Below are positions 12,201 through 28,188 of a stretch of 28,188 nucleotides of DNA, in pieces. How positions within the stretch are numbered: the stretch's first letter is position 1; the number at the start of each line of letters is the position of its first letter. The translations under genes were made by a program, and so were the position numbers. The notes beneath the pieces are model-generated. The model saw only the letters and a list, made by a program, of their open reading frames with translations, did no database searches and was not told where the DNA came from. The stretch lies in IMG/VR virus record IMGVR_UViG_3300047497_000143, positions 1 to 28,188 of that record, one strand, 5' to 3'. This stretch comes from a virus.

Positions 12201-12273
12201 ATACACACGGGACAAATCGCCCCGCAAGCCCCCTTTCACGGTTTTGTGGTCAGCGGTTGTCAGTAACGGGGTG

Positions 12274-12302: not shown

Positions 12303-12319
12303 CCGCTGATCGACGGACA
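12300..12319. promoter_or_regulatory. Operator dyad TGTCCG-N8-CGGACA
   Basis: TGTCCG at 12300-12305 mirrors CGGACA at 12314-12319, with GATC at the centre (16 of 20 positions symmetric). It overlaps the -10 of the rightward promoter. Its arms differ from the TTTGTCAG dyad, so it may bind a different protein, for example the repressor rather than the Cro-like protein. Confidence 0.6.
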
Positions 12320-12347
12320 AAACGATTGACAGGACAGGAACAAAAAC

Positions 12348-14261: not shown

Positions 14262-14411
14262 GTATGCGGCCTAAGACATTGAAAATGTGCCGGATTTTCT
14301 CGCCGGATCTGTTTGGCCCACACTCGGGCCGACATCCGAAATCGTCCGCTTTTCGCACCTAGAGGCGTGCTAGCCTCACAACAACGTGTTCGGTAGGGGC
14401 ACATACCGCCG

Positions 14412-14612
14412 TTACGGCATCTGCTGCAAAGTGGTGTGCGCGTTCGGCTCGACTACGATCACAGGCACGAAGGTCTTTAGCTTGGCAGGCTGGTAGGTCG
14501 GTTGGAACCAGTCGTCACCGTTCGCTGCGTTCTTCGATGTGCACCCGGCGACGCCTAGCACCGCAATTAGGAGCGCCACCAGCGAACAAGCCTTCTGAAG
14601 TCGGTGTGGCAT
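14412..14612 (-). CDS. Small lipoprotein
   Basis: A 66-residue protein with a standard lipoprotein signal: a basic start (MPHRLQK), a hydrophobic stretch (SLVALLIAVLG) and the lipobox VAGC with the lipidation Cys at 25. The mature part is about 40 residues. I use the ATG at 14612; a GTG at 14663 would add an atypical extension. Its location just beyond the attachment site suggests a host or junction gene. Function unknown. Confidence 0.6.
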   Translation of the reverse strand: MPHRLQKACSLVALLIAVLGVAGCTSKNAANGDDWFQPTYQPAKLKTFVPVIVVEPNAHTTLQQMP

Positions 14613-14716
14613 CTGTGCCGCCTGTCTGTTGCGGCCTCTATGCGCCGTTGAGACGACGGACACCAGAAATCCGCTCCACGCTTGTTCTCCCCATGTTCTC
14701 GCCCTAGCCTGCGGGC

Positions 14717-14950
14717 ATGCCCGATGAACGCCCCTTCACTCCCGCCGATCCCGCCGACCTAGAGCAGGCCCTCGCCCACGCTCTCCAATACGACGGGCGG
14801 AAGCGGTTCAAGGTGTCGGGGGAGATGATGGATAAGATCACGGCGGCCCACCTGGTGGAGTGCCTAAGGCAGTCTGGGTATGTCGTTATGAAGAAGCCGC
14901 CCGCGCGACCACACAGCTACAGCCCTGGCAAGGATCGCGGTGGCGAGTAG
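14717..14950 (+). CDS. Conserved small hypothetical protein
   Basis: A 77-residue protein, RPFTPADPADLEQALAHALQYDGRKRF then MMDKITAAHLVECLRQSGYVVMKKPP. This pattern looks like a family of short alphaproteobacterial accessory proteins that I associate by memory with prophage margins, without a known role. The two helical blocks around a basic GRKRF centre could bind nucleic acid; this is conjecture. It stands alone on the plus strand. Confidence 0.6.
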   Translation: MPDERPFTPADPADLEQALAHALQYDGRKRFKVSGEMMDKITAAHLVECLRQSGYVVMKKPPARPHSYSPGKDRGGE

Positions 14951-15000
14951 CATCCCCTCCTTCGGGCCCGAACGAGACTGAGCGCCGGGGACAAATTAGA

Positions 15001-15744
15001 TCAGTTGTCTTCAAACACCTCGATAATATTATGCGCTTTGTTGCAGAACATGCGAAGGGCATCGAAGATCGGAACTGTGCCGAAATGTTCTTCTTCGGCA
15101 AAGGTGATGTGTAGTGAGGCGTCGAAGACGTATTCCGGGCAATCCTTGGCAATTAAAGCAACAACTGTTCCGCCCTCATCGTCAACGCTCCAGTTGGCAA
15201 CAGTGCTTACGTCGCCATTCGCAAACGCGATTTGGGGGAACTGCACAGCGAGCGGTTTCGGCCGCACACCCAGTAGCCGCCGATGTTTCCGCATAATATC
15301 GAGGCGATGAAGGGAGCAAAGGATTGGGTCTCCACCCTCGTAAGGCTGCAAATCTTCAAGGATAACACGGTATTCGTCGCTCAATGACGCCATAAACCTA
15401 CCTACGCGAGTGTTGTGGCTTGTAAGGTCGGTGGCGACGTTTACGAATGGAAATTGCGCTAATCGAGCATCTGTCACGCCGCAGCGGACGGCCAATGCAC
15501 TTGCCAGAATATCTAGAGAGCTACGTATCGTGTTAATGTAGGCGCCTACCTCGACACTGAACCTCAAAGGCAACTCAACTTTCGTTCCGACAATAAGAAC
15601 ATTGCAGTCAGACCTTGGCCCAGCGTTGCGGACTTCGATCAACTTGTTTGCACGAAGCCATTCGTCTGCGCGTCCGATGAGTTCCGGTATTTGCTCCCGC
15701 GCCCACTCAAGCGACGCGTAAGCGTGCTGAAGGTCGTCACGCAC
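15001..15744 (-). CDS. Conserved hypothetical with RSxLD and KHR motifs (HEPN-like candidate)
   Basis: A 247-residue protein starting GTG at 15744 with GGAG upstream. It has an all-helical first part with INTIRSSLDILASALA (about 69-84), FPFVN, then LQPYEGGDPILCSLHRLDIMRKHRRLL (about 132-158) and a beta-rich C-terminus. The order NxxRSxLD, FP, LQPYxGG, LHxLDxxxKHR is a pattern I recall from uncharacterised bacterial proteins in accessory islands. R-x4 helices of this type resemble HEPN folds, but I cannot confirm a catalytic RxxxxH: RKHRR is the only similar spot. It lies 30 bp downstream of an HNH-nuclease gene, suggesting a two-gene unit. Confidence 0.65.
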   Translation of the reverse strand: MRDDLQHAYASLEWAREQIPELIGRADEWLRANKLIEVRNAGPRSDCNVLIVGTKVELPLRFSVEVGAYINTIRSSLDILASALAVRCGVTDARLAQFPFVNVATDLTSHNTRVGRFMASLSDEYRVILEDLQPYEGGDPILCSLHRLDIMRKHRRLLGVRPKPLAVQFPQIAFANGDVSTVANWSVDDEGGTVVALIAKDCPEYVFDASLHITFAEEEHFGTVPIFDALRMFCNKAHNIIEVFEDN

Positions 15745-15774
15745 AGCTCAATCTCCAATGATTGACCGATAAGT

Positions 15775-16530
15775 TCAATCTAATACCGCTGTTAAATCCG
15801 GCCTCAGCTTGTATTTTGAGGGCGCGAAGCGAAGATGTCGAGCGATCGGGATACGAGGATCGTCCGATAGCGGAATGTGCACGACGAAATTCCGGCATGC
15901 TACCACACACCTTCCATCTTCAACCTTGAATGAGAAGGGATTTGCCCAAATGCGGGCGTTGGGGTTTGTTATCGGAAGGCTTCCGCCGAGGATCATCTGA
16001 CTCATGACCGGCATCTGGGGATGGAATTTGAATGGATTGAAGAATTGCTGCCGCATAAGTAATCCGCTTTGCGTTACGACCACGCGATAGCCATATTCTG
16101 AGACTAAGGCTAGGTAAGCGACGGCCAGCCCCGCTATGATATTGAGTTGGCTGACAGAGCCTGGTCCAAAAGCCTTCGCGGTCGTTAGGTCTCGAATTGC
16201 CCTATCATAGTGACGGCCCTTCCAGCTGTTACAGCCGCTGCCGTGAATCTGGTTTCCTTTGTATTTCAGCGGGGCTTTACAAAGTAAGAGATTTCCGGCT
16301 CTGACATTCTTTGGTGTCGAGGGGTCTGCACGCACAATAGCCGGATCTTCCCTTAATGACTGCTGCGGGATTAGATGTTCTAAGTCAAAATCCTGCTGGC
16401 TCAGCCTTCGGCCGCACGCGCAGCACATTAATAGTCCCGATTGTTCCTCTTGCGGCGCGAAAGCCAGGAAGTCCGCGCGCATCTTGTGCCAAAGCTTCTC
16501 TCGAATAGAGGCTTCAGAAACTTCGCTCAT
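15775..16530 (-). CDS. HNH-family endonuclease
   Basis: A 251-residue protein with a zinc-framed HNH core in its first half: CCACGRRL, then DFDLEHLIPQQ (catalytic-type His in LEH), NVRAGNLLLCK, and GCNSWKGRHYDRA. The Cys pairs (CxxC early, then C...GC) would hold structural zinc. The C-terminal half is a separate domain of unknown type ending KYKLRPDLTAVLD. The ATG at 16530 is used; a GTG at 16545 is an alternative and neither has a clear ribosome binding site. It is followed 30 bp later by the RSxLD hypothetical. Base composition is lower in GC than the prophage, suggesting separate acquisition. A defence role is inferred from the nuclease type and location. Confidence 0.75.
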   Translation of the reverse strand: MSEVSEASIREKLWHKMRADFLAFAPQEEQSGLLMCCACGRRLSQQDFDLEHLIPQQSLREDPAIVRADPSTPKNVRAGNLLLCKAPLKYKGNQIHGSGCNSWKGRHYDRAIRDLTTAKAFGPGSVSQLNIIAGLAVAYLALVSEYGYRVVVTQSGLLMRQQFFNPFKFHPQMPVMSQMILGGSLPITNPNARIWANPFSFKVEDGRCVVACRNFVVHIPLSDDPRIPIARHLRFAPSKYKLRPDLTAVLD

Positions 16531-16615
16531 ACCGAAGCCAGGCACTTAGGCGGTTGCCTAGTCACTGGAACGCAGTCGCCTGTTCTTGATCATCGGAACA
16601 GCATGTTAATCCCTG

Positions 16616-16888
16616 TCAAAGGCTAACTGTGATGCTGGGTTGCGCAATATAATTCTCTATAGCCTCATCCGTGCCAAGGATTGCCACCGTCGATTGCCAC
16701 GGACGCCCCTCCATGTCGGTTGAGGTTTCCTGCCCAATGTGAAGAATGTAGTAGCCGTGAACTGAGATGTAATGGTTAAGGCAACCATTGAAATCTCTCG
16801 TTCCATCCATCGGAAAATTGCAATGCTCACATCCTCGCAGGACGTCCGAGGATATTCGAGCAGTGTGCAGCGTGCTCTTGAAGTTCAT
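16616..16888 (-). CDS. Small C2H2-like zinc-finger protein
   Basis: A 90-residue protein with C-x2-C (CEHC, about 20-23), then about 14 residues and H-x4-H (NHYISVHGY), the spacing of a classical C2H2 finger, followed by YYILHIGQET and a beta-rich end (STVAILG). GAGGA lies just before the ATG at 16888, fixing this start over the upstream TTG. Similar short bacterial proteins with an LHIGQET segment exist to my recollection, without known function. DNA binding is possible but unproved. Confidence 0.62.
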   Translation of the reverse strand: MNFKSTLHTARISSDVLRGCEHCNFPMDGTRDFNGCLNHYISVHGYYILHIGQETSTDMEGRPWQSTVAILGTDEAIENYIAQPSITVSL

Positions 16889-16979
16889 AAGTTCCTCTAA
16901 CCTCAAAATTTTTTGTATTCGTCTGTAGTACCGGAGACTTCTTTACCGAGTTCCTTGCTAAATCTCTGCGCCCGCCAAT

Positions 16980-17180
16980 CTAAGTAATCGATGCGGCCTT
17001 CCGCGCTATATATGTGTGGCAAAGCTCCAGGATGGCCCCCCGACCGTCGGTCCCCTCGGGGATCAGATGGATTATGGCCTCAGACATCGCCTCACACACC
17101 TTCTGGTAGGAATTGCCATCGGCAACGCGAGCCTTTGCCCAGCCAAGCGCGGCCTGAGCCAACGCAGCTTCATTGCTCAT
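16980..17180 (-). CDS. Small helical hypothetical protein
   Basis: A 66-residue, Ala-rich helical protein (MSNEAALAQAALGWAKARVADG ... AILELCHTYIARKAASIT). It lies between the zinc-finger gene and the XRE regulator on the same strand. No motif is recognised. Confidence 0.45.
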   Translation of the reverse strand: MSNEAALAQAALGWAKARVADGNSYQKVCEAMSEAIIHLIPEGTDGRGAILELCHTYIARKAASIT

Positions 17181-17237
17181 TTCAAATTAATCCCAAAATG
17201 ATTTCAAGCACGTCATCATACTGCGGGTTGAGCAAGC

Positions 17238-17471
17238 TTAAAAGCTTCTGTTTCGTAACCTTGCCCCCGCTCCGCCCCCGTTTTCAGGAATGAACTGCAC
17301 GCCAGCGGCCTCCAAGGCAGCGCGCAGTGACGCTACAGTCGTCGCGTAGGGCGCGCGACTTCCCCCCTCAAAGTCCGCTATCGTCTTACGTGCGACGGAT
17401 GCCGCCCGTTCAAGATCTGTCTGGGACCAATCAAGAAGGGCGCGAGCGGCGCGGCATTGCGAGGGCGTCAT
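17238..17471 (-). CDS. XRE-family helix-turn-helix regulator
   Basis: A 77-residue single-domain regulator: MTPSQCRAARALLDWSQTDL, ARKTIADFEGGSR, LRAALEAAGVQFIPENGGG. This is a common alphaproteobacterial XRE type in which the HTH fills residues 1-60 and an ENGGG tail follows. It is divergent from the rightward small-gene operon at 17587. Two copies of TTACTCATTTTG lie in the intervening 115 bp, one near its own start and one over a candidate rightward promoter, so it probably represses both directions. Confidence 0.82.
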   Translation of the reverse strand: MTPSQCRAARALLDWSQTDLERAASVARKTIADFEGGSRAPYATTVASLRAALEAAGVQFIPENGGGAGARLRNRSF

Positions 17472-17480
17472 CGTCCTAGG

Positions 17481-17528
17481 TTACTCATTTTGCGTTGACT
17501 AAGCTAGAGGCCGCGCTTACTCATTTTG
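17481..17528. promoter_or_regulatory. Duplicated operator TTACTCATTTTG and rightward promoter
   Basis: Exact 12-bp direct repeats at 17481-17492 and 17517-17528, 36 bp apart. Between them TTGACT (17495-17500) with a 17-bp spacer to TACTCA (17518-17523) could be a rightward promoter whose -10 lies in the second copy. The first copy lies 10 bp from the XRE start codon. Likely binding sites for that regulator. Confidence 0.6.
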
Positions 17529-17586
17529 AGCAGCCGAGCGGGTGCTGGAACACTCCGCCCGGCCTAACCTCAGGATGGAGTGAGCC

Positions 17587-17883
17587 ATGCCTAAAGCTGG
17601 AAGTGTGTCTACCACGAGGCGCCGCGTCGCGCCTGCCGAACGTTCGCAAGCGATAGCAATAGCTACCATTGCGCGTCCAAAACTCACGATTGTTTCGAGC
17701 CGGAAGACTCGCGATGGATCTAGGGAGGCTTGTCTTCAGGGCGTCGCACGGCTGATGCGGCAGTATGAAGCCAATCCTGTCGGGATGGAGTGGATTGCGC
17801 TCGTGCTAGTCATGCACACGGCGGAAGCCCGATCCGAGCGCCTGCACGAACTGGACGCCCGCAAGCGGGTGGTGCTGGCATGA
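17587..17883 (+). CDS. Hypothetical protein, first of a rightward operon
   Basis: A 98-residue protein, basic and Ser/Thr/Arg-rich at the start (GSVSTTRRRVAPAERSQAIAIATIARPKL), helical at the end (ARLMRQYEANPVGMEWIALVLVMHTAEARSERLHELDARK). Its stop overlaps the next start (ATGA), beginning a chain of coupled genes. Family unknown. Confidence 0.6.
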   Translation: MPKAGSVSTTRRRVAPAERSQAIAIATIARPKLTIVSSRKTRDGSREACLQGVARLMRQYEANPVGMEWIALVLVMHTAEARSERLHELDARKRVVLA

Positions 17884-18629
17884 CCCGCCCGACCCGCCGC
17901 GCCGTTCTGACCGGCGCCAGCCTCTCCCTGATCGCCGGGCCTGCCGTGGTCGCCAGCGCGGCCAGCATGTCCAGCAACCCGGACGCGGCGCTGTTGGCTG
18001 CGTGTGCAGCCTTCCATGCCGCTGAACACGCAACAAACAACAGAGGCGATATCTCCGACGATGAAGGAGATATTCTCTGTCTTGCGTATCATGACGCGTT
18101 GTCGGTCGTGGAGGACATGGAGCCGCAAACCCCTCAAGGCGTCGCCGCGAAGGCTCTTGTGGCCCACAACGCGCTCCTGGCAGGCGTGAGCGGCCTCGTT
18201 GGTGTCCCATGGCGTGACCAAGCCGATCTCTTCGAACGGGTTTCCATCGACGTTCTAGCCCTAGTTGCGAGCGCCCACATTCCGGCCGCCGTCTCCTTCC
18301 ACGATCCGGCAGACGTGGCCGTGCAAGCTGCGTGCGCCAGGTTCTACGCCGTCAACGTCGAGCTGCGGCGCGTGGTGGCGGCGGCTAAAGGCCTGCGCAT
18401 CCACACGCCCGAATGCCAGGCGCAGGAAGACGCTGTGGCCGTCCTGAACGATCAGGTGGACGAGGCGGTCGATGCCGTGGCCGACGCACCACCGGCCTCG
18501 CTATGGGGCATGGCGCACAAGGCCAGGCTGTTGCTCGCCATGCCGCCAGAGATGGACGATACGACGCGCGCGAGGTTTGGCGAGGCGATCGCGCGTGACT
18601 TGCTGGTGCTGTCGGGAGAGGTGGCATGA
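17880..18629 (+). CDS. Helical protein with Tat-like leader
   Basis: A 249-residue protein. The start MTRPTRRAVLTGASLSLIAGPAVVASAA has the paired Arg, hydrophobic stretch and Ala-x-Ala-like cleavage region of a twin-arginine signal. The mature part shows two similar segments beginning DAALLAACAAFHAAEHA (about 38) and DVAVQAACARFYAVNVE (about 143), so it may be an internal duplication. Proteins of this sort recur in alphaproteobacterial phage regions as uncharacterised accessories, from memory. It overlaps both neighbours by 4 bp (ATGA). If exported folded, it would act in the periplasm; the role is unknown. Confidence 0.65.
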   Translation: MTRPTRRAVLTGASLSLIAGPAVVASAASMSSNPDAALLAACAAFHAAEHATNNRGDISDDEGDILCLAYHDALSVVEDMEPQTPQGVAAKALVAHNALLAGVSGLVGVPWRDQADLFERVSIDVLALVASAHIPAAVSFHDPADVAVQAACARFYAVNVELRRVVAAAKGLRIHTPECQAQEDAVAVLNDQVDEAVDAVADAPPASLWGMAHKARLLLAMPPEMDDTTRARFGEAIARDLLVLSGEVA

Positions 18630-18850
18630 ACCCCAAACCCCTGAGCATTCATAATCTGGAACAGGTGGGCTTTGAGATACAGGGTGTCGCACAGACCTTG
18701 CGCGCGTTTTGCACCTCTGAGCTGGCTGAGGGCCTTGAAATGTCCATGGACATGTTGGCGGAGAATGCGGCCCGTGCCGCTGCCGACATCGCTCGATTTG
18801 TTGAGGAACAAACAGTTGCTCGGCGGCTTGCTGGGCGAGGTGCGGCATGA
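18626..18850 (+). CDS. Small helical hypothetical protein
   Basis: A 74-residue, strongly helical acidic protein (GFEIQGVAQTLRAFCTSELAEGLEMSMDMLAENAARAAADIARFVEEQ). It is coupled to both neighbours through ATGA and TGATG-type overlaps. No family recognised. Confidence 0.6.
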   Translation: MNPKPLSIHNLEQVGFEIQGVAQTLRAFCTSELAEGLEMSMDMLAENAARAAADIARFVEEQTVARRLAGRGAA

Positions 18851-18972
18851 TGGGGCGCGGATTTCGCTGGCCGTCGCCTTCCTACGGTCCAGTTAAGCCC
18901 GAACCGCCGCTTCCGCCGTGGAAGCCTGTGATTCGCAAACCTCGGCCGCCCAAGGCGGGGACTGGGAAGTGA
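18847..18972 (+). CDS. Tiny proline-rich protein (41 aa)
   Basis: A 41-codon frame starting ATGATG at 18847 inside the previous stop. It is rich in Pro, Lys, Arg and Trp (SPSYGPVKPEPPLPPWKPVIRKPRPPK). The overlap chain on both sides is the main support. Similar Pro-rich peptides can bind membranes or protein partners; the function is unknown. Confidence 0.5.
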   Translation: MMGRGFRWPSPSYGPVKPEPPLPPWKPVIRKPRPPKAGTGK

Positions 18973-19037
18973 CACGGTGCGGGGCGCTGTTGATGGACGG
19001 CCGCCGCATCCACGTCAGATTTAGGCGACGACGGTAG
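18969..19037 (+). CDS. Possible 22-aa basic peptide
   Basis: A GTG start at 18969 overlaps the stop of the previous gene (GTGA), and the frame closes at 19035-19037 after MDGRRIHVRFRRRR. It ends 8 bp before a strong terminator stem. Supported only by position and overlap, so it may be noise. Confidence 0.3.
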   Translation: MTRCGALLMDGRRIHVRFRRRR

Positions 19038-19045
19038 GGGGGTGG

Positions 19046-19077
19046 AGGCCGGGGCTTAAATCCCGGCCTTTTCTTTG
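19046..19077 (+). terminator. Rho-independent terminator of the rightward operon
   Basis: AGGCCGGG at 19046-19053 pairs with CCCGGCCT at 19062-19069, followed by TTTTCTTTG. It closes the 17587-19037 operon, facing the end of the leftward tail-fibre gene. Confidence 0.85.
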
Positions 19078-19087
19078 TTGTGATTGC

Positions 19088-20497
19088 CTAAGCGTAGAAG
19101 CCGAGATTGGTCCCGCTTCCGGTCGTGCCCGCCACGCTACCGGGGAAGTAGCTGGTGCCGCCCCCCTGCGTGTTGATCCCCGCACCCAGCGAAACCGCGA
19201 AGCGCGTCCCCGTCGCTCCAGTCCCTGCGAAGGTCACAGCGCCCAGAAGGTTCGACCAATCGCCGCCGTTCGCCAGGCAGAAGGTGGTGAAGGCGGGCGT
19301 TCCGGCCGTGGTGATGGTGATGGAGCCGAACACGTTGATGGAGCCGCCGAGCACGCTTTGATAATGGTAGGTTGCGCCGCCGCTGATCGTATAGCTGCTG
19401 CCAAGCGTGATGACGCCGCCTGACGTGTAGATATGCGCGCCTGTTGTCGGGCCGAACACGATGCCGCTGTTGACGTTAATGTTGCCCCCACTGTTCGAGG
19501 ATATGCCGCCGGTCAAGGTGGCGTTGGAAACCCCGATATTGGCGCCCAGATAGTCCGCGATGTTCCCGGAAATTGTGGTGCTGCCGGAACCGGCGCCAAC
19601 AATCGCAATGGGCGAGGTTTGCCCCGTCGCCAGGCCGGTTACGCTCACTGCGCCCGAGTAAGTGCCCGCGCCTACGTTGATCGTCGCGCTGAAGCCGTTG
19701 AAGTCATAGGAATTGTAAAGCGCATTCATTGCCGCCTGAATTGTGGCGAAGGGCGAGGCCAGGGATCGCCCATTGTTCGCCGTGTCGTTGCCGTTGCCGG
19801 AAGACACATACAGTGTGAGGTTGGCCGTCAGTTTTTGGCGGAGCTGCGAAAGCTGCGCGAGAAGCAACGGGGAGCCAGGGGCGGGGGCGATGTTGGCCGC
19901 TGTGATCTGGGTTTGTCCGTTTGTCACTGAAACAACGTATAGCGGCGTCCACCCAGCCGTTGCGCCAGGAGTTGCCTGCGTGCCTGCGGCGGCGGGAGTT
20001 CCGGCAATGAGCTGCAAGGATGCGCGCTGAGTGATAAGCGTGTTCTGCGCGCCGCCGCTGTTCGATGGGCCAGAATAGGGCGCGGACGGGTTGGAAGCGT
20101 TATAGTAAGGCAGAACGATCGGGTTGCTGCCAACCTCCAGGAATTGGCATTCGATCAAATAGTTCTGCGAAAACCCTGCCGTGCTGGGGGGCGTGATCGC
20201 CAGCGTGGTTGCTGAGACGTTGATGCCCATTTTCATCAAGGGGTCGGCCGTGTCGGCGGGCAACGAGCCGTAGGGGTTTTGGTCAATGACGTTCATCGAG
20301 GCAATCATGCCCCGGTTGACGGTCACGGTCAGGTTCGGCGTGGGGCTGTTAGGAACGCAAGACAGGCCGTTCACAACCGTAGTGCTGCCAAACGTGGCTT
20401 CGGCCAGGTAGCCGATAGCGACCATGGCATCACGATTCGCATTCAGGACATCGGTGTCTAAAACCATCTGGCCGGGGTAGTTTACAGTCCTGTCCAC
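19088..20497 (-). CDS. Tail-fibre-like / beta-helix phage protein
   Basis: A 469-residue protein starting GTG at 20497 with GGAG 8 nt upstream. The N-terminal region (DRTVNYPGQMVLDTDVLNANRDAMVAIGYLAEATFG ... VVNGLSC) matches a recurrent prophage tail-fibre N-terminus as I recall it. The C-terminal 250 residues have the Gly/Ser/Thr/Asn repeats and short strands of a right-handed beta-helix (SSGNGNDTANNG, FATIQAAMNA, ATINVGAGTYSGAVSV, then alternating strands), as in fibres and polysaccharide-binding spikes. It would bind the host surface as part of a tail. It is the last gene of the leftward operon of element 2; no tail-assembly genes accompany it. Confidence 0.78.
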   Translation of the reverse strand: MDRTVNYPGQMVLDTDVLNANRDAMVAIGYLAEATFGSTTVVNGLSCVPNSPTPNLTVTVNRGMIASMNVIDQNPYGSLPADTADPLMKMGINVSATTLAITPPSTAGFSQNYLIECQFLEVGSNPIVLPYYNASNPSAPYSGPSNSGGAQNTLITQRASLQLIAGTPAAAGTQATPGATAGWTPLYVVSVTNGQTQITAANIAPAPGSPLLLAQLSQLRQKLTANLTLYVSSGNGNDTANNGRSLASPFATIQAAMNALYNSYDFNGFSATINVGAGTYSGAVSVTGLATGQTSPIAIVGAGSGSTTISGNIADYLGANIGVSNATLTGGISSNSGGNINVNSGIVFGPTTGAHIYTSGGVITLGSSYTISGGATYHYQSVLGGSINVFGSITITTAGTPAFTTFCLANGGDWSNLLGAVTFAGTGATGTRFAVSLGAGINTQGGGTSYFPGSVAGTTGSGTNLGFYA

Positions 20498-20499
20498 GC

Positions 20500-20805
20500 T
20501 TATTCTCCGCCTTGGCGTTGCTGGGTTGGGTTCTCTATCTGCGATGCCTGCACGGATGCGCCGCTGCCGTATTGAAAGTGCCCATAACCTGCCAGCGGGT
20601 TGCCGCTGAAAGTCGGGTGCGTAAAGGGTGCGGGCCGCGCCGCTTCGGATATAGCGACCGCCCGCTGTCGGTGTTTTTCCCGGACACTTGCCGACTTGCC
20701 CGGCGCGGCGACTGTCAAGCCGCGCTCCGTTGGCGCTGTGTTAAACAACGCGAAGTTTCCCTGCGGCGATCGCCGCCAGATTTTCCCGGAAAGCGGCGTC
20801 ATCAT
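20500..20805 (-). CDS. Hypothetical protein upstream of the fibre gene
   Basis: A 101-residue protein with a basic start (GKIWRRSPQGNFALF) and a Pro/Gln-rich end (NPLAGYGHFQYGSGASVQASQIENPTQQRQGGE). It overlaps the preceding gene by 65 bp and ends 2 bp before the fibre start. The end region is fibre-adaptor-like in composition, but no family is recognised. The start is uncertain (ATGATG at 20800-20805). Confidence 0.55.
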   Translation of the reverse strand: MMTPLSGKIWRRSPQGNFALFNTAPTERGLTVAAPGKSASVREKHRQRAVAISEAARPAPFTHPTFSGNPLAGYGHFQYGSGASVQASQIENPTQQRQGGE

Positions 20806-21010
20806 CGCGGGCAACCGTCCCCTGTGAAGTTTTGCCCTCCGCAAACTCCCGGATTCGCTTGGCGTCGTAGCTTTCCTCGCCGCGCAGAAGCAGGATCTTG
20901 CCAGTGCGGTCAGCTTCTTCCGTCAATTCGGCCACCCGACCAACAATTAGCCGGTCCTCTGGGGTGATGAAGACGAAACGCTCCGCCTCATTCTTCAGAA
21001 ACTCGCTCAT
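20741..21010 (-). CDS. Small acidic/basic hypothetical protein
   Basis: An 89-residue protein (MSEFLKNEAERFVFITPEDRLIVGRVAELTEEADRTGKILLLRGEESYDAKRIREFAEGK). The first part reads as an antiparallel strand-helix domain with charged patches. The ATG at 21010 overlaps the stop of the preceding gene (TAATG), indicating coupling. Function unknown. Confidence 0.6.
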   Translation of the reverse strand: MSEFLKNEAERFVFITPEDRLIVGRVAELTEEADRTGKILLLRGEESYDAKRIREFAEGKTSQGTVARDDDAAFRENLAAIAAGKLRVV

Positions 21011-21600
21011 TAGAGGATGCCTCCCCAAAGGGCGGTTTCTTCCGGCACGGATCGCAGACACTGGCGAAACTCAACGGGCTGATACTGCGGGTGGGCGTGT
21101 GTGATCGGCGCCAGCTTGCTACCGTCGAAAGGGAGCTTGCACCCCGCCGACATCGCCTTACGGATCACGGCATTAGCGCCCTCCGACCGGGTAACTGCGG
21201 CCCGCATGGCGGCAAGAGCCGCGTCAAAGTCCGCAGCCGCCGCCACACGCTCTTTCGCGCCCGCCCGCAACACGTCCACGTTCGCCAGTGCATGGGATTC
21301 CTCGTGCGCCCTGGCGGCCTCGGATGCCTTCCGCTGAAGGGTCGCCACAAGATTCTGCATGAAAGTCACGTGCGCTTCCGCGTCGCGCTGCGCCTGCTCC
21401 AGATCCACCGGGCGCTTCATGCTCCCGGAGCTGGCTACACCTTCAACGGCCCGCAAATATGCGTCGCGCGCCGATGCGGCTTTCCTCTCAGCGTCCGCAA
21501 ACTCGCGCTTTGCTGCCTCCAGTCGCTCGCCGCTAGCTGCATGTTCCGCAGCCGCCGCGTCGATGATAGTCTTATTCACAAGGCCGTCTGTATCGAGCAT
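21010..21600 (-). CDS. Coiled-coil protein downstream of TerL
   Basis: A 196-residue protein with a long Ala/Glu/Lys helical region (about 12-140) likely to be a coiled coil (ERLEAAKREFADAERKAASARDAYLRAVEG and HVTFMQNLVATLQRKASEAARAHEE), followed by a short globular end (PITHAHPQYQPVEFRQCLRSVPEETALWGG). AGGA lies 9 nt before the ATG at 21600. It takes the position where a portal protein would follow TerL, but it is far too short and of the wrong type. A scaffolding, capsid-size-redirecting or packaging accessory role is possible by analogy with satellites. Confidence 0.65.
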   Translation of the reverse strand: MLDTDGLVNKTIIDAAAAEHAASGERLEAAKREFADAERKAASARDAYLRAVEGVASSGSMKRPVDLEQAQRDAEAHVTFMQNLVATLQRKASEAARAHEESHALANVDVLRAGAKERVAAAADFDAALAAMRAAVTRSEGANAVIRKAMSAGCKLPFDGSKLAPITHAHPQYQPVEFRQCLRSVPEETALWGGIL

Positions 21601-21617
21601 GTTCAATTTTCCTGCTG

Positions 21618-22922
21618 TTAGTAGAGAAGTCGTTTAACGGTTGTCGGGGCTGGACCGAGCGCCGAGAGGTCGGTCAGTGCCCATACCAGCGCGTCCAGCC
21701 TGTCGGGGGACGGGCCGGATTCCATTGGGCACCACTCGCAAAGCTGATCTTCAAGCTCAGGGAAGTTGCCCACGTGGTGCACCATCCCTTGCTCGTAGAG
21801 GGCGACCACAGGCTCAGCACGCACCGCCTTGCCTCTCGTGGCAGTCACCTTCTTAACCGGTGCACGCGAGCCAACACTGCGGATCGTGGCTTCCACCATC
21901 TCGCCGCCGTAATTCGTCTCTGCGATGATGCGGTCGGCCTTAGTAGCGATGAACAAGTCAATTGCTCGCCTGGCCCAATTGCGGGGGGTGAACTTCCCGC
22001 TTCCATCGCGCAGAACGTAGCAGTGACCGTTAGCGGCCTTGCCGACCACGACAATGCCAGTCTCCGCACCGCCCCGGTTGCTGGAACCCGCGGGGTCAAT
22101 CGCCACCACAACCCGCTTCAGATCATCCGGCGCCTGCGTTACGCGGCTGCTGTCCAGCATGTCACGGTTCCACAGAGCGTCCTCAGCATCGTTGAGGATC
22201 TCCGCATCGAGTTCCTGCCGGCCGAGCGTGGTCCCGGCATACATCGTCTTCAGGTGCTCGATTGTGCTGGCGTCTAGGTTCGCCGCGTTGTCGAACGTCT
22301 TTGACCGCGTCGTGACCGTGGACGGCATCGCCAGGATGGCGCGGATTAGCTTCTGGCGCTTGGGAGTGGTCGAGATAACAGCGGCTGGCGCGTCCCCCTT
22401 CGGACCGGGCACACGAAGCGCGAGCTGCGTGTTGCTCCAAACGTCCGCCTGATTTGCCCAGCTCGTAAGTTCGTCGCCCCAAACCCAGTCGAGATTGAGG
22501 CCACGAATGCGGTCCGGTTCCTCGCTAGACAGGCAATGCGCCACCGCGCCATTCGGCCACACAAGGCGGCGCTGCGACGGCTCGTGGATGGGCATGCACC
22601 ACGGCGGCGACACCCTGAGGATTGCCGCCACCTGGTCGCGGCGCAACGTGTCGGCGGTGGGGCCAACAAGCCCCACAGAAGCCCGCCTGCCGCTTTCCAC
22701 CTCCGCCCGCGTCGCCTCTGCGGCAGAACGCGTCTTGCCGCTTCCACGCCCGCCCAGCATGAGCCACGTGCGGAATGCGGTGCGGGGGGTAAGCTGGTCA
22801 GACCGCGCCCACACCGGCCAGTCGTATTCCAGCGCAAGCAACTCGTCCGCCGTAAGCCCGGAGAGGGCCGCGCGGCGGCGGTCCTCCGACATGGCGAGCA
22901 GCCCGTCAGTAAGTGCGCTCAT
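21618..22922 (-). CDS. terL: Terminase large subunit (GTA/Terminase_6-like)
   Basis: A complete 434-residue DNA-packaging motor. ATPase part: Walker A GGRGSGKT (57-64), Walker B-type DWVWGDE (145-151), coupling motif STTPK (184-188). Nuclease part: D276 (VVVAIDPAGS), E335 (IIAETN) and D410 (DRLDALVWAL). All catalytic residues are present, so it looks functional. I use the ATG at 22922 with AAGG upstream; the frame is open to 23060, but a hairpin at 22947-22967 lies in that part. It follows TerS. No portal gene is seen downstream, so packaging would need a portal from elsewhere. Confidence 0.9.
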   Translation of the reverse strand: MSALTDGLLAMSEDRRRAALSGLTADELLALEYDWPVWARSDQLTPRTAFRTWLMLGGRGSGKTRSAAEATRAEVESGRRASVGLVGPTADTLRRDQVAAILRVSPPWCMPIHEPSQRRLVWPNGAVAHCLSSEEPDRIRGLNLDWVWGDELTSWANQADVWSNTQLALRVPGPKGDAPAAVISTTPKRQKLIRAILAMPSTVTTRSKTFDNAANLDASTIEHLKTMYAGTTLGRQELDAEILNDAEDALWNRDMLDSSRVTQAPDDLKRVVVAIDPAGSSNRGGAETGIVVVGKAANGHCYVLRDGSGKFTPRNWARRAIDLFIATKADRIIAETNYGGEMVEATIRSVGSRAPVKKVTATRGKAVRAEPVVALYEQGMVHHVGNFPELEDQLCEWCPMESGPSPDRLDALVWALTDLSALGPAPTTVKRLLY

Positions 22923-22946
22923 GACGCAGACCTTCGTGCCGGGTTT

Positions 22947-22967
22947 AGTGGCGCGAGTTGCGCCACT
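22947..22967. repeat. Hairpin between terS and terL
   Basis: AGTGGCGC (22947-22954) pairs with GCGCCACT (22960-22967) around a 5-nt loop, 25 bp before the chosen terL start. There is no T-run, so it is more likely to tune terL translation or mark a packaging (cos/pac-like) or protein-binding site than to terminate. Confidence 0.5.
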
Positions 22968-23089
22968 TGGGGCGAAAGCGGAGACAATCTCCCCCGAACT
23001 ATGCCAAGGAAACGGCAGAAAAGCGCCATTCGGAATGGGGTCAAATTGCTCGGCCCACATTGCGGCCCACGATTTCGTTTGTGCATCGC

Positions 23090-23467
23090 TCAGCCCGCCG
23101 CTTCTGGAGTTGGCTGGTGCTCGATCACTTCGGGCGCGGCCATGCGGCCAATCTTGCCGAGGATGCGGTCCACCAGCGTCGCTGTGTCGTGCTGATTTGG
23201 CGCGGGCGCGTTAGCCACCACTGCCGCACTCAGGCGCGGGAAGATGAACGGGCACGCCGCCGTTGCCGCCTGAACCCGCACCTGCACGTCGTTTTCCGCG
23301 TCACCCGCGATTTCAACTAAAACCGCCAACGGGTCCTGCGCGGTTGTCAGCACTTCGCGGACGCGGGATTTAGCCAAATTGCGCATCGCCTCCGGTCGCG
23401 GGGTTTTGCCCCTCCAACCGGTTCCGGGCTTCCTTCCGGCACCAATTCTTTTCCCACCAGAAGGCAT
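23090..23467 (-). CDS. terS: Terminase small subunit-like protein
   Basis: A 125-residue protein with a basic Gly-rich start (GGKRIGAGRKPGTGWRGK), typical of phage small terminase N-termini, and a helical part (DPLAVLVEIAGDAENDVQVRVQAATAACPFIFPRLSA). It would recognise the packaging site on the DNA and hand it to TerL, encoded next. A TTGAGG-17-TATAAT promoter lies just upstream, so packaging genes are transcribed separately from the replication genes. In satellites, a self-encoded TerS redirects helper packaging. Confidence 0.75.
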   Translation of the reverse strand: MPSGGKRIGAGRKPGTGWRGKTPRPEAMRNLAKSRVREVLTTAQDPLAVLVEIAGDAENDVQVRVQAATAACPFIFPRLSAAVVANAPAPNQHDTATLVDRILGKIGRMAAPEVIEHQPTPEAAG

Positions 23468-23498
23468 CTCAGAGGCGCTGACTTTTTTTCACGTTATG

Positions 23499-23527
23499 AT
23501 TATACGCGCCGAGTTGCGTGACCTCAA
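23499..23527 (-). promoter_or_regulatory. Sigma70 promoter for the packaging operon
   Basis: Read leftward: TTGAGG (23527-23522), a 17-bp spacer, then the perfect TATAAT (23504-23499), ending 31 bp before the terS ATG. Spacing and -10 are ideal. This is the clearest promoter in element 2. Confidence 0.75.
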
Positions 23528-23642
23528 GATATGGGCAATCAGACTCCAATAAGGTGCTGACTATATCACGCAAATCCCCAATGCGTCTGCATGTGTCAGC
23601 GCTCAGCATAGCCGTGGAAAATTATTTTTGGTGCTCCGAGCC

Positions 23643-23948
23643 TGCTTCGGATGGTGCTTTGTGCTTTGGGTTCTATAGAACCCCAAAAGCATCCGAAGCA
23701 CCGAAGCAAACTCCGAAAATACGTTCCCAGAGCAATCCAAAGCAATCCGAAGCAGAGGAGATTGTGGGGGGGTCATAAGGTCCATACCCAGTCACGGTTG
23801 AAGGATATAAAAGCGTTGCGCTTGAGGGTGTTAAGGGCGTTGTTCTCCGGTCCATACCCCTTACGATCTATGTCGATCGATCCATCCGAAGCAGTCCGAA
23901 GCATGTCCTCCGAGAACCATCCACGGTCCACAAGTCGTTTCCGAAGCA
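23643..23948. repeat. Iterons TCCGAAGCA and palindrome: putative replication origin
   Basis: TCCGAAGCA occurs exactly at 23692, 23746, 23885, 23895 and 23940, inverted at 23643-23651, with near copies at 23700 (ACCGAAGCA) and 23736 (TCCAAAGCA). Pairs sit on a 10-bp period (23736/23746 and 23885/23895), so they lie on one face of the helix. TGCTTCGGATG (23643-23653) and CATCCGAAGCA (23690-23700) flank a perfect 16-bp palindrome centred in GGGTTCTATAGAACCC (23668-23683). AAAATTATTTTT lies just to the left. The cluster fills the non-coding gap 23468-23772 and enters the 3' end of the helicase gene. This is the design of a satellite or plasmid origin beside its rep gene. Confidence 0.78.
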
Positions 23949-24900
23949 AAACGCGCTTGACGGCTTGAACCGGGGGGTAGCCTAGGCCTGGTGTGACCGT
24001 CTGGCCCTCGCAGTCCAGGAGGCCGCGCAGCTCGCGTAGCATCACGGCTGGTGCATCGCGGAGGCGTCCTTCTTTTGCGGTGTTCGCGCCCGCCTTGAAG
24101 TCCGCGCCGGTTGGCTCCGCGACTGGTGCTGTTACGGGGTCGCCGTCGATATCCGGGGGGAAGCTATGGACGCCCAGCGTAAAGGAGAACGTGCCGTCCG
24201 AGGGGCCATTGCGGTTCTTTCCCATGCTGACTGTTCGGGGTTCCGCCCGCTGGCCCTCAAGGTAGAGAGTCACGTCGAAGTCGCCGTTGAGGACGCTGTG
24301 ACCGCGTGGCGTCATGGAGTCTTTGGGCGGGTGGTGGAGGGAGAGAACCGCGCTGTTGCAGATCATGGTGAAGCCGCGCGCCACCTTGACTACGTGCGAC
24401 ATTGAGTCAGGATCGTTCTCCGCTAGGCCAGGGAATGAACGGGCAATCGTGTCCAGGATGATTAGGCCCGGCTGGTGCGCTGTAATGAGCGACTCGATCT
24501 CCTCCACGTGCGGGCTGCCGGGGCTGAGGAAATCCACGGGCACGGGCTGAAGGAAGAAGTTCGGAGCGTCGCCCATTCGCTCATACAGCGCCTTTACCCG
24601 CTGCTTCATGCCGGTGCCGTCTTCCGCCGCGATGTAGAGAACGGGGGTCGGGCGTGTGCGGTGCCCAAATACGTCCAGACCTAGCGCGGTTCGGTAGCCG
24701 AGGAAGGGGGCCAGTGCTGACTTCGCACTGCCCGGCAAACCGATGAGGCCGCCGTGATCACCTTTCGACAGCAGACCCTTAATGACGTAGTCGCGCGGGG
24801 GCTCAATCGCGCATTCACTGGGGGTGAGAACGTGGATCTTCTGCGCTGGGCGCGCACGCTTCTCCGCGCGCATCTCGACAATCGCAAGCCGTTCGCTCAT
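23773..24900 (-). CDS. RepA-like replicative helicase (AAA_25)
   Basis: A 375-residue RecA-fold hexameric-type helicase: Walker A GLPGSAKS (54-61), VLYIAAEDG (87-95), Walker B GLIILD with D150, and SLHHPPKD further on. A C-terminal winged-helix-like region follows (LLRKRLVDRGWFSEDMLRT). The start ATG at 24900 overlaps the stop of the primase gene (ATGA). With the prim-pol partner it would start replication of element 2, perhaps by binding the iterons that begin at its own 3' end. The last 60 codons carry three iteron copies, so coding and origin functions overlap. Confidence 0.87.
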   Translation of the reverse strand: MSERLAIVEMRAEKRARPAQKIHVLTPSECAIEPPRDYVIKGLLSKGDHGGLIGLPGSAKSALAPFLGYRTALGLDVFGHRTRPTPVLYIAAEDGTGMKQRVKALYERMGDAPNFFLQPVPVDFLSPGSPHVEEIESLITAHQPGLIILDTIARSFPGLAENDPDSMSHVVKVARGFTMICNSAVLSLHHPPKDSMTPRGHSVLNGDFDVTLYLEGQRAEPRTVSMGKNRNGPSDGTFSFTLGVHSFPPDIDGDPVTAPVAEPTGADFKAGANTAKEGRLRDAPAVMLRELRGLLDCEGQTVTPGLGYPPVQAVKRVLLRKRLVDRGWFSEDMLRTASDGSIDIDRKGYGPENNALNTLKRNAFISFNRDWVWTL

Positions 24901-25709
24901 CGCCGCGCTCCCATCACCAGGGGAGCGCCCCTGCCGTTGTTTAAGCCCCATTCGATCGTCTTGGCGGCCCCGGCTAGGTTTGCCGCGCCAGCTGCCTCCA
25001 CAGCCCGCAGAAGTGCCTGCGCCGCCTCGTTGGCACTTACGTCTGCCAGATCAAGCAACCCGCCGATGGTTCGAGAAGCAGCGCGCAGGCGGTAATGCTT
25101 CTGCCCCTCCGGTGCGGTGCGGACGGCAGTAAGGCTGCTTTCGATCAACCTCCATGCCGAGTTTGCCTCTCTGTTGCCGTTGGCCGCTCGGGGTAATTTC
25201 GTCGCAACTTGCGACGAAATGGGCTGAGGGAGACGGGGCAGCGCGATTTCCGCAAGCCACTCGGGCCAATCTGCGATCGGCGCCCGGTGCTGCACGGCAC
25301 CACCACAAACAGCCCAGGCGATGACGTAGCCGCCTTCCGCCCGCACATCGACGCCAGGCGCTATCTTTGACTCCGAGTTGCGCATTCCCTCACGCGCCCG
25401 GAAATAGAAGTGCTGCCCGCCGCTACGGGTGCGAACGATCAGGGTTTCGGGCAGGTATGAGGCATACTCAGCCATCCAATCGTCGCTGCCGTGTCGGGGG
25501 TCGGTGTCCAGAACATCGAAGCCGCTCGCGGCGCCGGTTGGCATACCGATGAGCTGGCCCCCATATCGCGCCCACAGTTGCCGGACTTCTTGCGGATCGG
25601 AGCTGGCATTCTTGAACCCGTTAGGTGTCGCGGGCTCTTTAGTGACGCGGCACGGGAAGACGGGCTTTCCTCGTCCGGCCAGGCGCAACGCGTTTTCTAG
25701 GGGCGTCAT
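24897..25709 (-). CDS. Prim-Pol (bifunctional primase/polymerase domain)
   Basis: A 270-residue protein of the prim-pol family found in phages and plasmids. Features: FPCRVTKEPATPNGFKNASSDP near 18-39, the metal-binding D68-x-D70 (VLDTDPRHG), SGGQHFYF with H100, and PGVDVRAEGGYVIAW (118-132). It primes DNA synthesis at the element's origin. I choose the ATG at 25709 with AAGG about 8 nt upstream; the stop of the small upstream gene overlaps it (ATGA). The C-terminal 70 residues are a helical extension. The primase and helicase are separate here, while element 1 fuses them. Confidence 0.88.
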   Translation of the reverse strand: MTPLENALRLAGRGKPVFPCRVTKEPATPNGFKNASSDPQEVRQLWARYGGQLIGMPTGAASGFDVLDTDPRHGSDDWMAEYASYLPETLIVRTRSGGQHFYFRAREGMRNSESKIAPGVDVRAEGGYVIAWAVCGGAVQHRAPIADWPEWLAEIALPRLPQPISSQVATKLPRAANGNREANSAWRLIESSLTAVRTAPEGQKHYRLRAASRTIGGLLDLADVSANEAAQALLRAVEAAGAANLAGAAKTIEWGLNNGRGAPLVMGARR

Positions 25710-25909
25710 GGCACCACCTTCGCAGTGAGGCGAAGCCACTTTGCTTCAGCCTCGCGACGTTGGCGGGACATGGGCATCCCAACGTCATCGCTGTGCCAAA
25801 CGCGAGTGCCGGCCCCTTCGCCGGTCGTGCTATCAGGCAGCCATCGCCGGAATTGCACGTTACGGTCGGGGTCGCTTTGCTGAGCCGCCTGTGCGGCGCG
25901 GGCGCTCAC
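25706..25909 (-). CDS. Small basic hypothetical protein
   Basis: A 67-residue protein, GTG start at 25909 within the preceding stop (GTGA), end overlapping the prim-pol start (ATGA). It is basic, Arg/Gln-rich, with RQRREAEAKWLRLTAKVVP at the end. The overlaps on both sides support expression. No family recognised. Confidence 0.5.
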   Translation of the reverse strand: MSARAAQAAQQSDPDRNVQFRRWLPDSTTGEGAGTRVWHSDDVGMPMSRQRREAEAKWLRLTAKVVP

Positions 25910-26028
25910 GATGACGCCACTTCAAAACGGAATTGTTGAAAGGAGGCTTTCGATCCGCTATCTGTCACTTGCTGATGGCGACTGATACCGGCTGGAAAGC
26001 CCTGCACTAGCCCGCAGGGTTTTTCCAT
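25906..26028 (-). CDS. Possible 40-aa protein
   Basis: ATG at 26028, 2 bp after the AlpA stop, ending in a GTGA overlap with the next start. The sequence MEKPCGLVQGFPAGISRHQQ and a basic/aromatic tail show no motif. There is no clear ribosome binding site. Supported mainly by filling the operon gap. Confidence 0.4.
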   Translation of the reverse strand: MEKPCGLVQGFPAGISRHQQVTDSGSKASFQQFRFEVASS

Positions 26029-26030
26029 TT

Positions 26031-26249
26031 TTAGGCCGCCGCTTGGTCGGCAGCGCGGAACTTGGCGGGCGGCAGACTGTGCCAGAACGCGTCGATCGAC
26101 TCCGTGGTGACGAGAGTCTTGCTGCCGCACTTCACGGCCCTCAGGCGTCCAGCCGCGAGCAAGCGGTTTATTGTGGCGCGTGAGACTGAGATTTGCTGCA
26201 TGGCGGTCTCGATAGAGACACCGCGCGGGGCACTCAGCGTATCACTCAT
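26031..26249 (-). CDS. alpA: AlpA/excisionase-family regulator
   Basis: A 72-residue winged-helix protein: SIETAMQQISVSRATINRLLAAGRLRAVKCGSKTLVTTESIDAFWHSLP, the HTH_17 pattern with a wing around KTLVTT. In P4-like elements and Gram-negative phage-inducible islands, AlpA-type proteins activate excision and the replication operon. The placement between integrase and primase-helicase fits that role. AGGAG lies 8 nt before the ATG at 26249, with TATAAT upstream flanked by two direct repeats. Confidence 0.82.
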   Translation of the reverse strand: MSDTLSAPRGVSIETAMQQISVSRATINRLLAAGRLRAVKCGSKTLVTTESIDAFWHSLPPAKFRAADQAAA

Positions 26250-26308
26250 CGGCTTATCTCCTGCTGCATCTGGCGGGTGCCAGCGACGGGGAGATACCTA
26301 GAGAGACA

Positions 26309-26374
26309 GCCGAGGGAGGTTCAGACGGATAAACTCAGGCCGAATTATACCGGGCACAAACCCAGGGAGGTTTA
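26309..26374 (-). promoter_or_regulatory. AlpA promoter region with direct repeats
   Basis: Read leftward there is a perfect -10, TATAAT (26349-26344), but no good -35 at 16-18 bp. The words AGGGAGGTT at 26313-26321 and 26364-26372 are direct repeats 51 bp apart, on each side of the -10; the upstream copy occupies the -35 position. Weak -35 plus flanking repeats suggests an activated or repressed promoter. Confidence 0.55.
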
Positions 26375-27025
26375 TTCCCCCCTCGGGTAGTTAGTGTCCA
26401 GGAACGCCCTGATGGCCTGCCGCTTAGGGGTTTCGCCGGTAATCCTCTGGATCATAGCCTCAAGGAAGCACATTAGCGGCCCGTCTTCAGTGCGGCCGAT
26501 TTCACGGCCCGGGTTGGTCGGCGCCAAAGCCTGAATGAATGCGATTTCAAGTCGGCTGACGATCTCGTGCCAGCGCTTTCGGTTCCTGGCGGGCGTCCCG
26601 CCCCAGGATGAGGCCATGTGGCCCCTGAGCAAGGGCAGGGACGGGTTCTCCGTGGCCGCGATCAGCTCATCCAGCGCCTTTATTCCGGCCTCGGCGCGCG
26701 CCACGACGTCAGCCGCGGCTTCGCCCGCGTCGCGCTGATGGGCCTGTAATGGAATCAAAACCTGGTCACGTAACCATGGCGCTAGTGCCCGAACCTGAGC
26801 GAGGGCATTTAAGAACATCACGTGCCTGGCGGTTCTGTCTGCCTCAAGATCCTCGCTATGCACCATCAGACGCAGCACTTCCAGGTTGTTCGACAGAAGC
26901 TCAAGGCTGCTACTTGTCGGCCCCCTAACCGGAGAACGGTCTTTGATGATGCGCTCAGTCTCTAAGATCTCCTGCACGCGTTCGGGTGTGAAGAATCGGT
27001 GAGGCGACGCTTGAAGTTGCTCCAT
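26372..27025 (-). CDS. Hypothetical protein next to integrase
   Basis: A 217-residue, mostly helical protein (ERVQEILETERIIKDRSP, LELLSNNLEVLRLMVHSED, ADVVARAEAGIKALDELIAATEN) ending DTNYPRGE. It begins 2 bp after the integrase stop, in the same direction, so the two are co-transcribed. No catalytic motif seen. Position suggests a regulator of integration or an accessory protein; this is inference. Confidence 0.6.
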   Translation of the reverse strand: MEQLQASPHRFFTPERVQEILETERIIKDRSPVRGPTSSSLELLSNNLEVLRLMVHSEDLEADRTARHVMFLNALAQVRALAPWLRDQVLIPLQAHQRDAGEAAADVVARAEAGIKALDELIAATENPSLPLLRGHMASSWGGTPARNRKRWHEIVSRLEIAFIQALAPTNPGREIGRTEDGPLMCFLEAMIQRITGETPKRQAIRAFLDTNYPRGE

Positions 27026-27027
27026 GG

Positions 27028-28188
27028 CTACGACGCTTTCAGCGCGCGGATTTGCACCACGTTGTCAGATGGCTTGCCGGTGGATGCGCAGAAGGCCGCC
27101 CAAGCTTCCATCAGTTCGCGCCGCCGGTCGAACAGATCGTTACGGGCATAGGCCCGCTCGGTTGAATCTCCGATCGCATGCGCCAACGATGCCTCGATAA
27201 CCTCACGTGCAATGGTCGTGTTATCGCCAGCCCACTGCCGAAACACCGATCGAAAGCCATGGACCGTCACGTCTGCGATTTTCATCCGCTTTAGGACAGC
27301 CGCCATGGACATGTTGCTTAGGCCAGTCTTTGGCTTCTGGCCCGGGAACACAAACCCGTCTCCGCCCTCTGCCCGTGTTGGCAGAAGCGCAGTGAGAACC
27401 TCCTTCGCGGCGGCCGTCAGAGGCACACGATGCAGGCGCCCCATCTTCATGCGCTCAGCCGGGATGGTCCATGTGCCGCTGTCCATGTCGATTTCAGACC
27501 ATCGCGCGCCGATCACCTCGCCTGTTCGGGCGGCGGTTAAGATCGCGAACCGGAGCGCGAGGGCAGCTGTGCCGCCTTGCTTGTGTAGCGAGGTCATAAA
27601 GCCCCCCATCTCGGCAAGGGGCAGCGCGGCATGGTGTTCGACTTGGGCGACCTTCGCCGCCTTCGGAAGCAGGTTCTCAATGTGACCCTTCCAGCGGGCC
27701 GGGTTCTCGCCTGTCCGCCATCCTCGGCTGGTAGCGTAGTCGAGCACGGACTCGATGCGGCCACGCACCCGAGTCGCTGTTTCAGTTTTTTCGAGCCAAA
27801 GGGGTTCCACAACCCGCATCACAGCGCCCGTATCGACCGCTTGGACTGACCACTTGCCGAAAACGGGGGCGGCATAGGTCGTCAGCGTGTTCTTCCACTG
27901 CTGAACGTGCTTCGCGTTCTTCCAGGTCGGTTCGTGGGCGGCAATGTAGAGCTTCGCCACCCCGTCGAAGGTCATAGTCACCTGCTCTACCTTGGCCCGC
28001 TTCTCGCCAATGGGGTCACGCCCAGCAAAGACGGTCTGAGCCGCCTCGAAGCTCGCCCGGCGTGCCGCTGCCAGTCCCACAAGGGGATAGGGGCCTAGGC
28101 CGAGCTGCTTCTGTCGGCCCTGCCAAGTGTAGCGGAATAGCCAAGAGCGGCGGGGTGGGCGATTGGCGTCCGTGCTCTTCCGGTTCGG
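27028..28188 (-). CDS. int: P4-type integrase, start beyond the window
   Basis: The frame is open to the right edge, so the N-terminus is cut off. The last 36 codons at the edge encode SWLFRYTWQGRQKQLGLGPYPLVGLAAARR, the DUF4102 arm-binding domain of P4-type integrases; the apparent GTG start at 28080 is an internal codon. Catalytic residues visible: Arg in LTAARTGEVIGARWSEID, H-x2-R in VHGFRSVFRQWA, His in LAHAIGDSTERAYAR, and the Tyr of that same stretch. It reads away from the missing right boundary, as in P4-like islands inserted at a tRNA or similar site. A second integrase so near the first shows two separate elements. Confidence 0.9.
   Translation of the reverse strand, partial: PNRKSTDANRPPRRSWLFRYTWQGRQKQLGLGPYPLVGLAAARRASFEAAQTVFAGRDPIGEKRAKVEQVTMTFDGVAKLYIAAHEPTWKNAKHVQQWKNTLTTYAAPVFGKWSVQAVDTGAVMRVVEPLWLEKTETATRVRGRIESVLDYATSRGWRTGENPARWKGHIENLLPKAAKVAQVEHHAALPLAEMGGFMTSLHKQGGTAALALRFAILTAARTGEVIGARWSEIDMDSGTWTIPAERMKMGRLHRVPLTAAAKEVLTALLPTRAEGGDGFVFPGQKPKTGLSNMSMAAVLKRMKIADVTVHGFRSVFRQWAGDNTTIAREVIEASLAHAIGDSTERAYARNDLFDRRRELMEAWAAFCASTGKPSDNVVQIRALKAS

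Follow-up and report, generated by a model that had tools for sequence, protein, structure and literature searches.

SaPI and PICI origins lie directly 3′ of rep, with two sets of iterons around an AT-rich region, and a plasmid can be replicated by the rep-ori unit of a PICI (PMC6092414). Both SaPI Rep and Cch2 of SCCmec read their origin iterons with their C-termini, the site of the latter being downstream (PMC7581432). What is found 3′ of the prim-pol/helicase rep gene of pRN1 is a stem-loop (hairpin) origin (PMC4234260), and for the PrimPol-RepA-WH proteins of the PrimQH family it has been predicted that a C-terminal winged helix recognises origins (PMC5862659). Modules that pair a prim-pol with a RepA-type helicase occur widely among phages and mobile elements, so what do their origins look like? 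In the open literature searched no description of one was found, nor of an origin class in which iterons and a hairpin are combined under a RepA-type motor. The stretch considered here, termed the window, is a linear IMG/VR record of 28,188 bases. Beside a helicase gene in it, and partly within that gene, is an array of iterons at which, with a probability of about 0.86 as judged from sequence comparison, replication begins in an integrative, satellite-like element whose host is of Acetobacteraceae type. The features on which this turns are:

23643 to 23948, no strand assigned: iteron array, six exact copies of TCCGAAGCA plus near copies, with clusters of other words at the same place in relatives
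23668 to 23683, no strand assigned: perfect palindrome GGGTTCTATAGAACCC, core CTATAG (the conserved CTWWAG core)
23636 to 23712, minus strand: predicted single-stranded DNA stem-loop with opposed iterons as its stem and CTATAG as its tip, −20.7 kcal/mol, z −5.3
23773 to 24951, minus strand: RepA-type hexameric helicase (AAA_25, 4e-24), putative initiator
23776 to 24105, minus strand: extra C-terminal domain of the helicase (about residues 283-392, outside the RepA-aligned region), proposed iteron reader
23885 to 23948, minus strand: in-gene iterons, within the part coding for the helicase C-terminal domain, in two codon frames

One of the six exact copies of TCCGAAGCA is inverted (23643-23651, minus) and five are on the plus strand (23692-23700, 23746-23754, 23885-23893, 23895-23903 and 23940-23948). 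The chance expectation is 0.27 per window; six or more copies arose in 0 of 100 shuffles and, in 100 first-order Markov simulations, the count of a 9-mer within 310 bp never exceeded three. Two further copies, 23700-23708 and 23736-23744, have one mismatch each and a third, 23662-23670 (minus), has two; the rest of the window has only three more one-mismatch copies. The earlier note had described the repeat, a perfect 16-bp palindrome and the placing of the array after and partly inside the helicase gene, and in all of these it was right: the repeat exceeds chance in both kinds of simulation, the palindrome is the sole one of at least 16 bp in the window, and three of the exact copies are within the gene and three beyond it. 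Its expectation that the word be confined to this site is borne out for the 28-kb record that the count covers. The pairing on a 10-bp period that it proposed holds for 23736/23746 and 23885/23895 but not for 23692/23700, which are 8 bp apart, and the AT-rich tract that it pointed to does exist, at about 23617-23631, but is not kept in relatives, where the conserved AT element is instead the palindrome core. Translation passes through the in-gene copies in two different frames (MLR-T and T-A-S-D), so the repetition is at the DNA level and is not that of a protein repeat. A search of Rfam gave no match, and the paired word TCCGAAGCANTCCGAAGCA had zero exact matches in IMG/VR.

Is the arrangement peculiar to this record? 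Scans of IMG/VR and GTDB contigs with helicase peptides yielded zero direct relatives, and a search of 397 Acetobacteraceae genomes gave helicase relatives of up to 46% identity; the window integrase is 68% identical to that of L051, an element in a metagenome-assembled genome of an uncultured member of the Acetobacteraceae. The window TerL has many relatives, but as their loci showed none of the other window proteins they are uninformative about the array. The loci compared were 40 from Acetobacteraceae and two wider searches, together with L051 and plasmid and phage records, giving 52 with related RepA-type (AAA_25) helicases, mostly from Acetobacteraceae, and 53 when the window is counted; the near or exact duplicates among them (L168/L169 and L125/L179) do not affect the picture. 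At 36 of the 53 loci some 7-mer is present in at least five copies no more than 230 bp from the helicase stop, against 24 of 4,916 background stretches drawn from the same loci. The corresponding figures for a hairpin core of CTWWAG type are 27 of 53 and 9 of 4,916, with 23 loci having both, and a strictly defined palindrome core was found at 14 of 41 loci when 0.0028 per locus was expected.

What is shared is a layout. Numbered from the helicase stop, the units inside the gene fall between about −130 and −107, where L106, L107, L118, L119 and others have them too. A first direct set occupies about +7 to +37, and a second (about +78 to +105) ends at the palindrome, after which come inverted units. 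The words themselves differ, being at the equivalent place TGCTCCCC in L106, GCGTTCCC in L107, ACTCCCCA in L118, GCGTTTCC in L119, GCGTGGGG in both L112 and L121, CGTCACCC in L163 and GACTTTCC in L164, with CGGACA-type words in many relatives. A Methylobacterium plasmid, complete, circular and 35 kb long, has the structure, and so do the Roseobacter phages CRP-811, CRP-821 and CRP-831 and Rhizobium phage RHph_N65; in Rhizobium phage 16-3 there are 14 units and the core palindrome is farther out, at +338. Some helicase relatives are without the array or the hairpin, e.g., L111, L115, L167 and the Gordonia and Microcystis phages.

Iterons of plasmids often serve both origin and copy-number or partition roles. 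Could the array then be a copy-number or partition locus, comprising incompatibility iterons or parS-like sites, rather than the start site itself? Its closeness to the rep gene would suit such a function, as would the dual role of plasmid iterons, yet no partition genes adjoin it, the element is integrative, and an AT-core hairpin between opposed iterons is an origin-like feature, all of which makes this reading very unlikely.

If the array is an origin, which protein reads its words? The helicase profile matches RSF1010 RepA (1g8y) over the motor with an E of 4e-18, and beyond the motor the sequence pattern of the extra C-terminal domain suggests that it is winged-helix-like; single-sequence AlphaFold2 models of the helicase and of the C-terminus alone had pLDDT values of 50 and 34, which are too poor for assigning a fold. 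Across loci, the more alike the C-terminal domains are, the more alike the words tend to be (r 0.49, and a partial r of 0.49 when the motor domain is controlled for; permutation p 2e-4, the permutation tests on this correlation ignoring phylogeny), the stretch coded by the in-gene iterons having been excluded from the C-terminal domain for the comparison. With the motor domain r is 0.08-0.14. When the words were picked automatically, and from non-coding DNA only, r was 0.50, with p values within subgroups of 8e-4 and 0.004, and on adding eight more distant loci, to make 41, r was 0.40 (p 2e-4). Because the array adjoins the C-terminal codons, their co-inheritance as a cassette could yield the same correlation without recognition, and there is one exception, Diaphorobacter L196, which has type-A-like words and a C-terminus that is not type-A. 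On this comparison the C-terminal domain is the putative reader of the iterons. A SaPI-like geometry, with iterons by the helicase gene and read by the C-terminus of its product, had been proposed for this DNA before, and the same layout in relatives and words that track the C-terminus both speak for it. The description of the helicase as rep-type needs amending: a helicase it is, of RepA/RecA type (AAA_25), but its motor is unrelated to that of SaPI Rep.

One relative deserves mention here for its in-gene units. In L164 (7248-7498) there are eleven iterons in the helicase gene, translated as an LSG/LSS-rich linker ahead of the C-terminal domain, and its origin is one that has grown within coding sequence.

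Folded as single strands, the origins of five relatives have z values of −4 to −7. Core variants across the loci are CTATAG, CTTTAG, CTTAAG and CTAAAG, and when the tip is read in the helicase direction in the 53-locus set CTTTAG occurs 14 times and CTAAAG twice, an imbalance that amounts to a strand bias, which would not be expected of a site acting as a double-stranded palindrome. The primase encoded beside this type of array varies, being Prim-Pol in the window and, in its place beside the same origin type, a TOPRIM protein (DUF7146) in L112 (7869-8603) and L182 (1967-2890). The possibility that the hairpin tip is a property of prim-pol systems is weakened by the presence of the same tip in those two TOPRIM elements. 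Separately, the Polaromonas plasmid pPNAP03 (L184, 4074-4140) has a CTTTAG hairpin after a RepA-type helicase gene, without iterons.

A strong hairpin fold between two genes of the same direction, helicase and terS, also brings transcriptional control to mind, with the units being repressor operators or the hairpin a terminator or attenuator. A terminator would be atypical in having in-gene units and inverted units past the palindrome, and the sequence past the hairpin has no T-run. For operators, no repressor gene is constantly linked; and it counts against any control region of this kind that the word changes along with the helicase C-terminus. Such a role is very improbable.

The element in which the array resides is encoded on the minus strand and reads, from the right-hand end of the window:

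27028 to 28080, minus strand: tyrosine integrase, whose N-terminal part (about 120 aa, as estimated from L051) falls past the window end
next after the integrase, minus strand: protein of 217 aa with no function assigned
26031 to 26249, minus strand: AlpA/excisionase-like HTH protein (HTH_17; phrog_66 excisionase)
24897 to 25739, minus strand: Prim-Pol primase-polymerase (PF09250, 5e-27)
23090 to 23467, minus strand: TerS-like protein, the next gene past the array (phrog_641, a weak match, 1e-4)
21618 to 23060, minus strand: terminase large subunit, TerL (Terminase_6N/6C)
14216 to 14261, plus strand: 3′ half of tRNA-Arg(CCG), an attachment-site remnant, the same sequence being present in Acetobacteraceae genomes

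With a TerS-like gene directly downstream, might the array be a packaging site (pac or cos-proximal) that the TerS reads? TerS-like or TerL genes also follow it in L106, L107, L118, L163 and L164, those of L107 and L163 counting as terminase-like only as DUF5681-type proteins. However, these downstream genes are unrelated in type (phrog_641, phrog_4102, DUF5681, TerL) and the array keeps one layout throughout, there are arrays with no recognised terminase gene adjacent (L109, L112, L182 and the phages L186 and L189), and both the in-gene units and word identity track the helicase C-terminus. Because the layout stays constant while the downstream gene varies, a terminase-read pac site was rejected, and the probability left to packaging is very low. 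An origin is favoured over it by the occurrence on a circular plasmid and in phages, the varied primases, the varied downstream genes and the short tRNA-integrated relatives. The likely origin to which the earlier note had pointed is one that the shared layout, the tracking of words with the C-terminus and the presence on a circular plasmid strongly support.

Is the element a satellite, as was also claimed? The order on the minus strand, int, excisionase-like gene, prim-pol, helicase, array, TerS (weak match) and TerL, is of PICI type. Past TerL are proteins without assigned function and one that is weakly tail-like, this being the one weak tail match, and in 14262-28188, the record being cut at 28188, none of the scanned proteins was recognisable as capsid or portal. 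Among the tRNA-integrated relatives L118 is 6.69 kb (5118-11828), L051 6.8 kb (1037-7824) and L106 10.5 kb (2773-13355); both att copies are present in each, all three carry int, a RepA-type helicase and the origin, and L118 and L106 have TerS-like genes. These three look like small Acetobacteraceae satellites. From the gene order, the lack of a recognisable capsid or portal and the small tRNA-integrated relatives, a satellite is the favoured reading of the window element as well, and the claim stands as favoured rather than proven.

The tRNA-Arg(CCG) half has the orientation expected of a distal attachment site and occurs in one copy within the record. It is probably the left end of the element and/or the right end of a neighbouring prophage. 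Leftward of it come the early genes of another prophage, with repressor, integrase, Sak4-like protein, Cas4-type exonuclease, helicase, primase-helicase and RusA. Past the stop of that primase-helicase gene (1019-3493) no iteron cluster was seen. A second integrase gene (12976-14160) adjoins the tRNA half, and there seem to be two elements in tandem at one tRNA site. The left-hand prophage region also encodes, at 5152-5814, a protein with a Tlde1/YkuD (L,D-transpeptidase-like) domain. At 15001-17471 a low-GC (52%) stretch encodes an HNH protein with a weak likeness to PtuB, together with a small HTH ‘control protein’; it is possibly cargo, with perhaps a role in defence.

How might such an origin work? 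We infer binding, loading, melting and priming as follows. Once made, the helicase would bind, through its own C-terminal domain, the TCCGAAGCA iterons that begin in its gene, pass the stop codon and recur inverted beyond the palindrome, and the opposed iterons would load helicase rings at both sides of the palindrome. The CTATAG core would melt, or a strand might extrude as a hairpin with an iteron-built stem, the RepA-type motor would enlarge the bubble, and Prim-Pol, encoded just upstream, would make primers for the host replisome. On a somewhat better than even estimate, this is one case of a general origin class for RepA-type helicases in phages, plasmids and satellites of Pseudomonadota, which starts in the helicase gene, has element-specific iterons that form a hairpin stem, and has a near-constant, strand-biased tip to mark where melting or priming takes place with primases of very different kinds. 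The layout is a sequence rule for locating such origins and offers a testable code linking helicase C-terminus to iterons, in a natural experiment where reader and words vary and the hairpin tip stays. It would also make it possible to build vectors that replicate in Acetobacteraceae and in related bacteria, and it draws attention to small satellite-like elements integrated at tRNA genes in Acetobacteraceae.

Set beside the described systems, the protein side resembles that of PrimQH PrimPol-RepA-WH, with a prim-pol, a RepA-type helicase and a predicted C-terminal winged helix, though the available part of that study deals with proteins only and describes no origin sequence (PMC5862659). With SCCmec Cch2/CCPol-MP there is in common a helicase C-terminal domain that binds, or in the window is proposed to bind, direct repeats just past its own gene and a primase pair upstream; what differs there is another helicase family, three short iterons and a Gram-positive cassette (PMC7581432).

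The likeness to PICIs and SaPIs (SaPI, EcCICFT073) extends further: the origin comes immediately 3′ of the replication helicase gene, two iteron sets face each other across a melting site (a proposed one in the window), each element has words of its own, and the order is int-(regulator)-pri-rep-ori-terS. However, the window motor is RepA-type (AAA_25, RecA-fold) and not related to Rep, the AT element is a palindrome core of 4-6 bp where PICIs have an AT-rich tract, and the opposed iterons, units of which begin in the gene, can pair into one hairpin. The window origin resembles PICI origins, and the element is not classed as a PICI because its helicase is AAA_25/RepA-type.

As in pRN1 with its ORF904, a stem-loop origin directly follows a prim-pol/helicase rep gene whose product ends in a winged helix (a predicted one in the window), the stem sequence diverges while the structure is kept, and similar structures are found in phages (PMC4234260); pRN1, in contrast, has an SF3 helicase, lacks iterons, and forms a stem-loop of 100 nt in which the loop is large. 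The motor itself is homologous to the hexameric RepA of RSF1010 (IncQ), where oriV, served by RepA/RepB′/RepC, likewise has iterons plus hairpins and a dedicated primase. No RepC-like gene is among the window proteins scanned. Whereas the iteron binder of RSF1010 is the separate RepC, that of the window seems to be fused to the helicase as its C-terminus, and the stem of the window hairpin is built from the iterons themselves.
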